NCBI GenBank assembly: GCA_030424595.1
Contig: JAUHWG010000038.1
Location: 1-64,000 of the forward strand
Length of the DNA stretch: 64,000 nucleotides
From: Polyangia bacterium
GTDB taxonomy: Bacteria; Myxococcota_A; Polyangia; Nannocystales; Nannocystaceae
Direction: 5' to 3'
Below, in pieces: positions 1 to 13,065 of the stretch (the first letter of the stretch is position 1; each line of letters begins with the position of its first letter). The notes beneath the pieces are model-generated. The model was not told the DNA's origin. It searched no databases and worked only from the letters and a program-made list of their open reading frames with translations. Both the position numbers and the translations under genes were made by a program.

Positions 1-49
1 CTCCCTCGAACCTCTCATGCGCTGGACAAGCAGCTCGGCCCACATCCTC

Positions 50-258
50 AGCTCACCTTCCCCAGGAGGACGAGCCGCAGGGGACGGGCGAGGGGGGACA
101 CCGCGAACGAGTCTAGGACGCGGATGGACCCCTTGGTGACAAGGGGTCCATCCGCGCTCCGACCTGTCTGAGAGAGTGGTGTCCCCCCTTGACCGGCCCT
201 CGCCTCAGCCTCCGCCTCTACCCCAAACCTTCGCGTCTGAGGAGACCGCCGAAGAGCG
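50..258 (+). repeat. Structured repeat, copy A (nested covarying hairpins)
   Basis: An inner hairpin pairs 119-135 with 140-156, 17 perfect base pairs closed by the loop GTGA. An outer stem pairs 86-102 with 178-194, with one mismatch (88/192) and one G-T wobble (90/190); its inner 11 pairs (92-102 with 178-188) are perfect. The strands between the stems (103-118 and 157-177) are unpaired. A second copy lies inverted at about 12346-12560: those unpaired strands are identical there, while the stems differ by compensating changes. Weaker similarity extends on both sides to roughly 50 and 258. The element is co-oriented with the lipoprotein gene starting at 507 and ends 312 bases before it. I recognise no known family; a structured RNA, a structure-recognised DNA site or a mobile repeat are all possible. 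Confidence 0.8.
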
Positions 259-364
259 AGTGAGGAACCGACCTGCTAGCGTCGACCGCTGCCTCACCCG
301 AGATCGAGCTTGAGAGCGCCGGGTGAGGTCGTCGAAGCAGCTCCTCAGACCACGCTGCGACCGT

Positions 365-10237: not shown

Positions 10238-10351
10238 AGCCCATGCCGGCTCATCACGAGCTTGTCGGAGAGCTGTCTCTGGTGCCAGGCGGGCTCTAGC
10301 GCCGACAGGACGATCGCTCCCCGGGGGCGGGCCGACGCTCGAAGACCGACG

Positions 10352-11500
10352 TTACGACGGCGGTTCGGCGCTGGGGTCGTCGCTTTGGCGCAGCTCGACA
10401 CCGCGGCGAAGCGCCGCCCAGGTCGCGGCCGCGGAGACCTGCGGATCGCTGTCTGTCGCCGAGCGACGGAGCGCCGCGATCTCCTCCTCAGAGGGCGGAG
10501 CCTCGCGATTTCCGAGGGCCAGGAGGGCGTTACGCCGGAGGTGTCGCCTGGGGATCCGGCGCAGGGCGGTGTCGCGCACAAGCGCGCGCTGGCGCGAGGA
10601 GCCGAGCTCGGCTACCTGGACCAGGTCAAAGACCCGCGGGCCTCCCGGCGGAGGCGCGAGCCGGGCGACCTCCGGGGTCCGACCCTGGCGGTCGCCGGCG
10701 TTGTAGGGGCAGACCTCTTGGCAGACGTCACAGCCGGCGATCCGCTCGCCGAGCTTGGCCGCGAGCTCGTCGGGGATCGGCCCCCGCTCCTCGATCGTCA
10801 GATAGGCGATGCAGCGGCGGGGATCGAGGACGCCGGGGGCGTCGAAGGCGTCGGTCGGGCAGGCGTCGAGGCAGCGACGACAGCTGCCGCAGGCGTCCCA
10901 GAGGGCGCTTTGGAGCCGATCTGGAGCGATCCCGCCGGGGGCGTCGGCGAGGGCTGCGGTCGTCATCAGGGCGCCGATGAGCACATAGGAGCCGAGGCCG
11001 GGGACGATCAGGCAGCCGTGCTTGCCGAGGAAGCCGAGCCCCGCCAGCGCGGCCGCGGCCCGCTCGAGGAGCGGCTTGGTGTCGACGCAGACGAGCGACG
11101 TGGCCCCCGGCGCGAGCTCGCCGAGGCGCTCCTCCAGGGCGAGGAGGCGACCGTGCAGCACGGTGTGGTAGTCGAGGCTCTGGGCGTAGCGGGCGATGGG
11201 GCCGGCTTCGCCGTCGTAGGGGACGCAGGCGACGAGGAGGGTGCGGGCACCCTCGAGCATCTGCGCCGGATCGGTGGCGACGGCCCGATTGCGCTCGAGG
11301 AAGCCCATCGACCCGGCCTTTCCGGCGTCGATGAAGCGGTCGTAGGCCTCCTTGGCGGGGACGAAGCCGGGATGCGCGAGATCGACGGCGCCGAGGCGGA
11401 GGAGGCCGAGCTCGGCGGCAGCGCAGCGCAGCTCCTCGAGCGCGGAGGCGTCGAGGAGGGGCGCCGCGGCCGGCTGTGGTGGTGGTCGTCGCCGGTTCAC
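10352..11500 (-). CDS. queG: Epoxyqueuosine reductase QueG
   Basis: The 382-residue protein carries the two ferredoxin-type clusters of QueG: CGSCRRCLDACP and CDVCQEVCP. The upstream cobalamin-binding part has the family's DYHTVLHGRL and GKHGCLIVPGLGSYV. The C-terminal tail has a HEAT-like repeat, as in longer QueG proteins. QueG performs the last step of queuosine synthesis, reducing epoxyqueuosine to queuosine in the wobble position of tRNA, using B12 and two 4Fe-4S clusters. The start is a GTG at 11500 that overlaps the stop of the NUDIX gene as GTGA, so the two are translationally coupled. Confidence 0.95.
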   Translation of the reverse strand: MNRRRPPPQPAAAPLLDASALEELRCAAAELGLLRLGAVDLAHPGFVPAKEAYDRFIDAGKAGSMGFLERNRAVATDPAQMLEGARTLLVACVPYDGEAGPIARYAQSLDYHTVLHGRLLALEERLGELAPGATSLVCVDTKPLLERAAAALAGLGFLGKHGCLIVPGLGSYVLIGALMTTAALADAPGGIAPDRLQSALWDACGSCRRCLDACPTDAFDAPGVLDPRRCIAYLTIEERGPIPDELAAKLGERIAGCDVCQEVCPYNAGDRQGRTPEVARLAPPPGGPRVFDLVQVAELGSSRQRALVRDTALRRIPRRHLRRNALLALGNREAPPSEEEIAALRRSATDSDPQVSAAATWAALRRGVELRQSDDPSAEPPS

Positions 11501-12099
11501 GGGCGGGGCTCGATCTCTAGACGTCGGAGGAGGTCAAAGACCATCCGCGCGGTCGCGCCCCACAGCGGCGGGGTGTGGATCGCGAACTCGTGGAGCTCGT
11601 AGTACTGCCCCTGCCACTCGGCGCTGCCCTTCCAGGTGTAGGTGGTCGGATCGCAGAGGCTGCGGAGGCTGGGGGTCAGGGTTCTCGCGACCTCGCCGCG
11701 ATCGAGGGCCTTGGGGGTCCAGTCGCTGAGCACACGGGCGACGTAGGGGATGATCAGGTAGCCGCTGGGCGTCGGCACAGGCGCGAGGCGGCCCAAGACG
11801 GACACCTCGGCGCGGTCGAGGGAGACCTCCTCCTCAGCCTCGCGCAGCGCGGTGTCGAGGAGGTCGCGATCGTCGGGCTCGGGCTTGCCGCCTGGGAAGG
11901 CGAGCTGACCGGCGTGCTTGCGCAGGGTCCCGGCCCGCTCGATCAGGAGGAGGCGCGGCCCCTCGTGGTCGATCGCGGGCAGGAGCGGGGCGATGACGGC
12001 GGCGTAGCGGAGCGGCGCAGGATCTGGGATCGGCGCAGCGATCGCGTCGAGGCGGGCGCCGAGGTCGAGCGGGAGATCGTAGGGAGAGGAGCCGGACAC
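11497..12099 (-). CDS. NUDIX hydrolase, CoA pyrophosphatase type
   Basis: The 200-residue protein has a NUDIX box with the spacing of the NudL/CoA pyrophosphatase branch: FPGGK, then REAEEEVSL. The usual Gly of the box is a Ser here. The C-terminal IHTPPLWGATARMV also fits this branch. Such enzymes cleave CoA and its thioesters to 3'-phospho-ADP and phosphopantetheine. The start is probably the GTG at 12099, preceded only by a weak GCGAAG. Its stop overlaps the queG start by four bases. Copy B of the structured repeat ends 310 bases upstream in the same orientation. Confidence 0.88.
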   Translation of the reverse strand: MSGSSPYDLPLDLGARLDAIAAPIPDPAPLRYAAVIAPLLPAIDHEGPRLLLIERAGTLRKHAGQLAFPGGKPEPDDRDLLDTALREAEEEVSLDRAEVSVLGRLAPVPTPSGYLIIPYVARVLSDWTPKALDRGEVARTLTPSLRSLCDPTTYTWKGSAEWQGQYYELHEFAIHTPPLWGATARMVFDLLRRLEIEPRP

Positions 12100-12150
12100 G
12101 CTTCGCCCGGATCATCGCACAGCGGCGCCGTGATGCTAGTCCGCGGCGGC

Positions 12151-12301
12151 GGGCGGGCGGGCGGGCGTTCGGGCGGTCGGTCGGGCGGGCGGTCGTTCGG
12201 TGAAGCTGCGTGTTGTTGAAGGCGAGCGGGCCTGGGGTCGTGGGCGAGCGGGTTCGGGGATCGTGGGCCTGGGGTCGTGGGCGAGCGGGTTCGGGGATCG
12301 T
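12151..12301. repeat. G-rich region: G-quadruplex motif and 37-bp direct repeat
   Basis: 12151-12165 is four G-triplets separated by single C, a textbook quadruplex-forming pattern on the plus strand. 12228-12264 is repeated at 12265-12301 with period 37, starting GGGCCTGGGG. Further G-triplets continue to about 12345. The region lies upstream of the minus-strand NUDIX gene, so the G-rich strand is the template strand for that transcript. Confidence 0.75.
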
Positions 12302-12345: not shown

Positions 12346-12560
12346 GGGCTCTTCGCCGGAGGTCAGAGGTCGGGGGCCGTATGGGAGGGGCGGAGGCTGA
12401 GGCGAAGGCCGGGCGAGGGGGGCAGCACTCTCTCAGACAGGTCGGAGCGCGCGTAGACCCCTTGTCCCAAGGGGTCTACGCGCGTCCTAGACTCGTTCGC
12501 GCTGCCCCCCTCGCCCGTCCCAGCAGCTCGTCCTCCGCTTGAGGTGAGCCGGGGGATCGA
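12346..12560 (-). repeat. Structured repeat, copy B (nested covarying hairpins)
   Basis: Read on the minus strand, this is the second copy of the element at 50-258. The inner hairpin pairs 12448-12464 with 12468-12484 (17 bp, loop GGA in the sense direction). The outer stem pairs 12410-12426 with 12501-12517, 17 perfect pairs. The strands between the stems (12485-12500 and 12427-12447) are identical to copy A. Relative to copy A the inner stem has three substituted pairs, all compensated, and the outer stem changes sequence and length on both arms together. It ends 310 bases before the NUDIX start, co-oriented with it, and abuts the 90-bp array on the other side. Confidence 0.8.
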
Positions 12561-13065
12561 GGGCTGGGTCGCGAACCCAGAGCACTGCGGTTGCGGAGTG
12601 AGCGGAGGAAGGAGGCCGGAGCGACTGGAGGAGGTGAGCCGGGGGATCGAGGGCTGAGGCGCGGACTCCGAGCACTGCGGTTGCGGAGTGAGCGGAGGAA
12701 GGAGGCCGGAGCGACTGGAGGAGGTGAGCCGGGGGATCGAGGGCTGAGCCGCGGACTCAGAGCACTGCGGTTGCGGAGTGAGCGGAGGAAGGAGGCCGGA
12801 GCGACTGGAGGAGGTGAGCCGGGGGATCGAGGGCTGAGCCGCGGACTCCGAGCACTGCGGCTCTGGTGTGTGTGGACGACGGGGTGAGCCGGGGGATCTG
12901 GGGCTACGGTTCTGGTGTGGCCGGAGCGACTGAAGGCGAGCGGGGGCTCGGGGGCTGGGCCGCAGACTCCGAGCACTGCGGTTGCGGAGTGAGCGGAGGA
13001 AGGAGGCCGGAGCGACTGGAGGAGGTGAGCCGGGGGCTCGGGGGCTGAACCGCGGACTCAGAGCA
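12541..13065. repeat. 90-bp tandem repeat array
   Basis: Units start at 12541, 12631, 12721 and 12811 with an exact 90-base period; the first three are full and nearly identical. Unit four diverges from 12861. Degenerate and partial units follow to about 13065, including a good copy from about 12934 and a truncated one at 13020. Each unit contains GAGCACTGCGGTTGCGGAG and GGAGGAAGGAGGCCGGAGCG. There are no spacers, so this is not CRISPR. Together with the preceding elements it fills the gene-free interval 12100-13081. Confidence 0.9.

Follow-up and report, generated by a model that had tools for sequence, protein, structure and literature searches.

What is the element that stands near one end of this DNA and recurs, inverted, some 12 kb away, with paired arms that differ between its two copies and intervening strands that do not? 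The window, by which we mean the whole analysed stretch of 64,000 nucleotides, lies on contig C38 of a Nannocystaceae genome assembled in 65 contigs (here G000). A preliminary description, drawn from the letters of the window, had proposed selection on structure, in RNA or in single-stranded DNA, and knew no family that would fit. We consider in turn the evidence for structure, the folded strand, the extent of the family and the explanations for its spread.

An interrupted hairpin with compensating stems and fixed loop strands

Read directly from the sequence, copies A and B are an inverted pair with nested stems, as had been described (Table 1). The two strands between the stems agree at 37 of 37 positions, the inner-stem differences are compensated, and so is the change in the outer stem from GACACC/GGTGTC in copy A to GCAGC/GCTGC in copy B. 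The folding energy of copy A is -90.3 kcal/mol, compared to a mean of -51.9 kcal/mol for dinucleotide shuffles (z = -10.6).

Table 1. Positions of the hairpin copies, their parts and neighbouring modules in the window, and of the reverse transcriptase operon elsewhere in the same genome
Feature	Position	Strand	Remarks
Copy A, core hairpin	86..194	+	outer stem, two invariant strands, inner stem, GNRA loop
Copy A, outer stem	86-102/178-194		17 positions, one G-A mismatch (88/192), one G-U (90/190)
Copy A, 5' invariant strand	103-118		GCGAACGAGTCTAGGA
Copy A, inner stem	119-135/140-156		17 bp
Copy A, apical loop	136-139		GTGA, GNRA class
Copy A, 3' invariant strand	157-177		CTCCGACCTGTCTGAGAGAGT
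Copy A, full model length (R1/R2)	80..200	+	adds pairs beyond the stem first described
5' module, conserved	47..79	+	TCCTCAGCTCACC...AGGAGGACGAGC; small hairpin TCCTC/GAGGA; upstream of most copies
3' module	201..262	+	CGCCTCAGCCTCCGCC...GAAGAGCGAG; recognisable but diverging fast
Copy B, full model length	12405..12522	-	encloses 12410-12517 of the preliminary description
Tandem array of 5' module	12541..12860	-	3.6 units of 90 bp, 96% match; immediately upstream of copy B
RT and SWIM operon	L105:9013-10329 and 10332-12227	-	contig C15 of G000

The compensation holds throughout the family, which a covariance model (A1/R1) built from 40 aligned copies extends to about 80 members in G000. In an alignment of 48 copies from two species that was fitted to the structure, and thus favours pairing, 98.9% of 2049 pair cells contain standard pairs and 24 of the 43 pairs have changed on both sides; a simple MAFFT alignment of 40 copies agrees. 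The covariation score is 0.316, compared to 0.126 for shuffled alignments and no more than 0.096 when partners were slid, and no shuffle and no slid version reached the observed value. The stems of the second species (G001) differ almost throughout from those of G000 and have retained their pairing. Uncompensated stem differences in further copies had been named as the observation that would speak against selection on structure; across these 48 copies the stems are compensated.

Pairwise difference among 40 close copies is 0.3% in the 5' internal-loop strand and 1.9% in the 3' strand, while it reaches 7-14% in the stems, 25% in the apical loop and 9-41%, mostly 17-41%, in the flanks. The fixed strands read GAGTC(TAG)... 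and ...GACCTGTCTGA, with GAGTC...GACCTGTCTGA as their invariant centre, whose GTC is able to pair with GAC. The invariance first described is thus borne out, although the strands, then called unpaired, are probably paired in part (GTC:GAC, GGA:TCC, with a TA bulge), so that the whole element is probably one long interrupted hairpin. Its core of approximately 110 nt evolves by compensating changes in the stems while the two loop strands stay fixed.

The pairing signal is one-sided, which identifies the top strand as the folded one. G-U or U-G pairs occupy 168 cells and A-C or C-A only 3, whereas the opposite strand would carry 168 A-C mismatches; one G-U pair is retained in all 48 copies and a second in 43 of them. 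The RNA fold of the top strand is better than that of its complement in 68 of 75 copies, and the 75 apical loops include 33 of GNRA type, 31 GNA and two CUUG. GNA triloops are stable in DNA as well. Given the 168:3 ratio and the predominance of GNRA and GNA loops, the top strand probably folds as RNA, and of the two molecules left open by the preliminary description the evidence leans to RNA. To judge from these sequence patterns the element likely acts as RNA, which would be carried either by a transcript of its own or by read-through transcripts, the latter being conceivable because orientation to the surrounding genes is random.

Size, range and genomic setting of the family

The covariance model finds 76 strong copies in G000 (9.54 Mb), plus four that are truncated, partial or diverged; its coincident hits on the other strand are the shadow expected of a palindrome. 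Used as a query against the same genome, copy A gave at least 40 long matches (40 of 108 candidates were scored and all 40 were long). The exact core pattern matches 72 times in G000 and in none of 378 other sampled Myxococcota genomes. About nine copies are present in G001, a 65% complete genome of the same genus (Myxococcales MAG HKST-UBA11), some of them belonging to a different subfamily, GAGTCCCGCAGGAC...GAGGACCTGTCTGA, and two in a Nannocystis MAG (G012), while a model search of 26 other Nannocystaceae genomes found none. When GTDB contigs and IMG/VR were scanned with exact patterns, genuine hits were confined to G001 and the Nannocystis MAG, and a search of phage and plasmid records gave no match. 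The matching Psychrobacter and viral sequences fail to fold as the hairpin does and were taken as chance hits.

Nothing in the window exceeds the gathering threshold of any Rfam 15 model, the relatives' loci gave tRNAs only, and the highest-scoring weak matches are to miRNA models and lie far under threshold. The statement that no known family fits therefore stands for Rfam 15, at gathering and at relaxed thresholds. The element is real, strongly supported and uncatalogued in Rfam; it is a covarying structure that a single bacterial genus carries in very many copies, and its natural variants are numerous enough for direct mapping of a recognition motif. Close to two of the relatives' hairpins, at about 1 kb or less, lie tRNA genes (L137:1245-1316 and L043:601-683).

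Copies in G000 are intergenic, with 26 between convergent, 40 between codirectional and four between divergent genes, counts that are approximate because gene context was taken from a home-made codon-usage caller on a 65-contig assembly. The excess of convergent over divergent sites (26 vs 4) is significant (p = 6e-5). Among codirectional sites the two orientations relative to the neighbouring genes occur 21:19, without bias, and a riboswitch-like or terminator-like role in cis is therefore unlikely. The flanks of the copies contain no widely recurring protein family and no autonomous member was seen; an autonomous element carrying the hairpin was rejected for lack of a recurrent flanking protein. 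Likewise, neither target-site duplications nor defined ends of the hairpin family were found, nor an enzyme that would mobilise it. Tandem arrays occur within 350 bp upstream of 36 of 75 copies and downstream of 20 of 76, compared to 9 of 29 stretches of control intergenic DNA, and their units vary between loci, the array beside copy B being one example.

In both G000 and G001, the ends of several contigs fall within or close to copies. Only 80 bp separate copy A from the start of C38, and contig C15 opens within a hairpin identical to it; C38 and C15 may therefore be neighbours in the genome.

Copying between loci and its alternatives

Copies less than 20 kb apart share 0.89 identity, compared to 0.827 when positions are shuffled, and the observed value was reached in 0 of 2000 shuffles. 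Hairpin identity and flank identity correlate at just 0.15, and some pairs of copies whose hairpins share 98-100% identity are far less alike right outside. A derived stem, CGCGGATGGAC, is common to copy A and to the copies L002, L003, L015 and L031, most of which share one contig, and such shared derived stems suggest that the hairpin has been copied between loci. The contrast between hairpin and flank is due in part to selection on the hairpin, and the identical hairpins of some pairs may represent a retained consensus rather than recent copying.

We propose, with a probability of roughly 0.55, that the family is a non-autonomous, dispersed structured repeat specific to a lineage within the Nannocystaceae, copied or converted locally and distributed like REP/BIME elements without a RAYT. 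Its folded strand would be read by a factor acting in trans, presumably a protein that recognises the internal-loop motif; the hairpin would pass between loci as a short unit, by copying or conversion, with the need to fold allowing only foldable variants to persist; and copies would be tolerated between genes, mostly outside divergent promoter regions, as in REP/BIME. We regard copying as probable. The preliminary description had also allowed for a symmetry that is incidental to a known mobile repeat: no such repeat was found, although in its behaviour the family is indeed dispersed and homogenised.

Two hairpins in G001, on contigs C1380 and C258, adjoin orthologues of genes that flank copies in G000 (L085/L084 and L140/L089), in the same relative orientation and with protein identities of 71-96% and 72-84%, respectively. 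Their stems are remodelled relative to G000 yet paired, the surrounding intergenic DNA can otherwise hardly be aligned, and the hairpin at the second locus is of another subfamily. In three further cases a G001 contig breaks off at approximately the place expected from a G000 copy, which fits the presence of a copy there and does not prove it. No empty site could be shown in G001, where one candidate contig is non-syntenic and the three orthologous contigs end at the expected site. Together with loop strands that are nearly invariant at each copy while adjacent DNA diverges, the two shared loci would also fit long-lived functional loci, each copy serving the host as a small RNA or 3'-end structure (an mRNA stabiliser or a protein sponge) under selection of its own, with the expansion secondary. 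We consider this doubtful, since the copies lack both orientation bias and a common flanking gene family, were not found in the 26 other genomes of the family and show strong local similarity to one another.

A different origin is suggested by the only reverse transcriptase found in G000, which is of retron type XIII (RT_XIII, 1e-159; SWIM_XIII, 5e-85) and lies directly behind a SWIM-domain gene and a gene of roughly 2200 aa. SWIM and RT genes are 2 bp apart, which leaves no room for an ncRNA in cis upstream of the RT, and there is no msr-msd in cis. Similarly tight spacing occurs in several other Myxococcota, while a clear ncRNA precedes the RT at loci L116, L121 and L125. Lampson and Rice reportedly proposed, in 1997, retrotransposition for the msDNA-like repeats of Nannocystis exedens, and the old idea that such repeats spread in Nannocystis becomes testable in sequenced genomes. 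As described in a review, which credits Lampson and Rice 1997, N. exedens carries several duplicated msr/msd copies of retron Ne160 with no RT close by (PMC6868368). These copies, and a sole RT lacking an ncRNA in cis, make retron origin an attractive guess, and a possible one: the hairpin would provide the RT, in trans, with an msd-like or msr-msd-like template, the resulting single-stranded DNA rewriting other copies.

All three genomes with the hairpin carry the type XIII RT or a close orthologue (71-86%), although the association is weak, as many RT-bearing genomes have no hairpin. The model finds nothing in complete Nannocystis genomes with the same RT, and the core motif is absent from 400 kb taken from one of them (G026); a de novo scan of those 400 kb, run without a positive control, found one long hairpin, which is unrelated. 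Downstream of the RT in G026 (L195) are several short intergenic hairpins of the form CCTGTCC-TTCGGG-CCAGG, possibly another repeat family. The 20 kb around the RT of G000 hold no significant R1/R2 match, pairing of a1/a2 type was no better with a copy's own flanks than with swapped ones (-80.4 vs -82.4 kcal/mol), and the hairpins bear no resemblance to the ncRNAs before the type XIII RTs of L116, L121 and L125. On these three grounds the hairpin was rejected as the retron ncRNA itself, and a retron-derived family appears improbable. The more specific proposal, that the roughly 80 loci supply a template or guide in trans for a type XIII RT without its own ncRNA, whose cDNA overwrites other copies, is a shade more speculative still; if true, it would represent a retro-homogenised RNA family in a bacterium.

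It is very unlikely that the top strand folds instead as single-stranded DNA at replication and is cut by a recombinase, in the manner of attC or IS200/IS605. The long hairpin, its fixed extrahelical bases, one-sided folding and mobility-like distribution would suit such a mechanism, as would the GNA triloops; however, the kept G-U wobbles and the GNRA and CUUG loops are RNA-like, no Y1_Tnp match was found, and in place of RYYYAAC and GTTRRRY core sites the hairpin ends read GGGACGGGC...GACCGGCC. Finally, template switching at quasi-palindromes, which corrects one arm from the other and could yield compensating changes without selection, deserves almost no credence: the near-perfect or perfect stems and the slippage-prone DNA implied by tandem duplications beside many copies are compatible with it, but the same process would remove the retained G-U pairs along with the fixed, asymmetric internal loops, and the loop strands are the least diverged of all regions.

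Comparison with known systems

Integron attC sites resemble the hairpin in having variable stems, constant extrahelical bases and a folded strand that matters, and differ from it in their core-site motif and cassette array, neither of which accompanies the hairpin, and in lacking its RNA-like wobble pairs and loops. The msr-msd of type XIII retrons is likewise a long variable hairpin, and G000 encodes the matching RT and SWIM proteins, but its hairpins lie away from the RT, in about 80 copies, and are unlike the ncRNAs of L116, L121 and L125. The msDNA-like repeats of N. exedens (Ne160), as far as a review describes them (PMC6868368), share with our family the bacterial family, a repeated sequence and an RT at a distance; msr, a1 and a2 features were not found in the hairpins.

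The closest parallel in distribution is with REP/BIME elements, which are also dispersed palindromic intergenic repeats, form mosaics with accessory modules and are rare in divergent promoter regions; the corresponding observations here are the approximately 80 intergenic copies, the module arrays and the 26 convergent against four divergent sites. REP units are described as palindromes of 20-40 bp with a GTAG or CGTC tag (PMC3733652), whereas the core of approximately 110 nt is no such tagged palindrome and is distinguished by its nested stems, two fixed internal-loop strands and wide covariation. A search for PF01797 (Y1_Tnp, the RAYT domain) gave no match in G000, which is 93% complete, and was positive in 5 of 14 control genomes. 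The family would thus show a REP-like repeat under selection for RNA structure without the usual RAYT enzyme. Dispersed structured intergenic repeats are a kind already known; what is new is the structured element itself, uncatalogued in Rfam.
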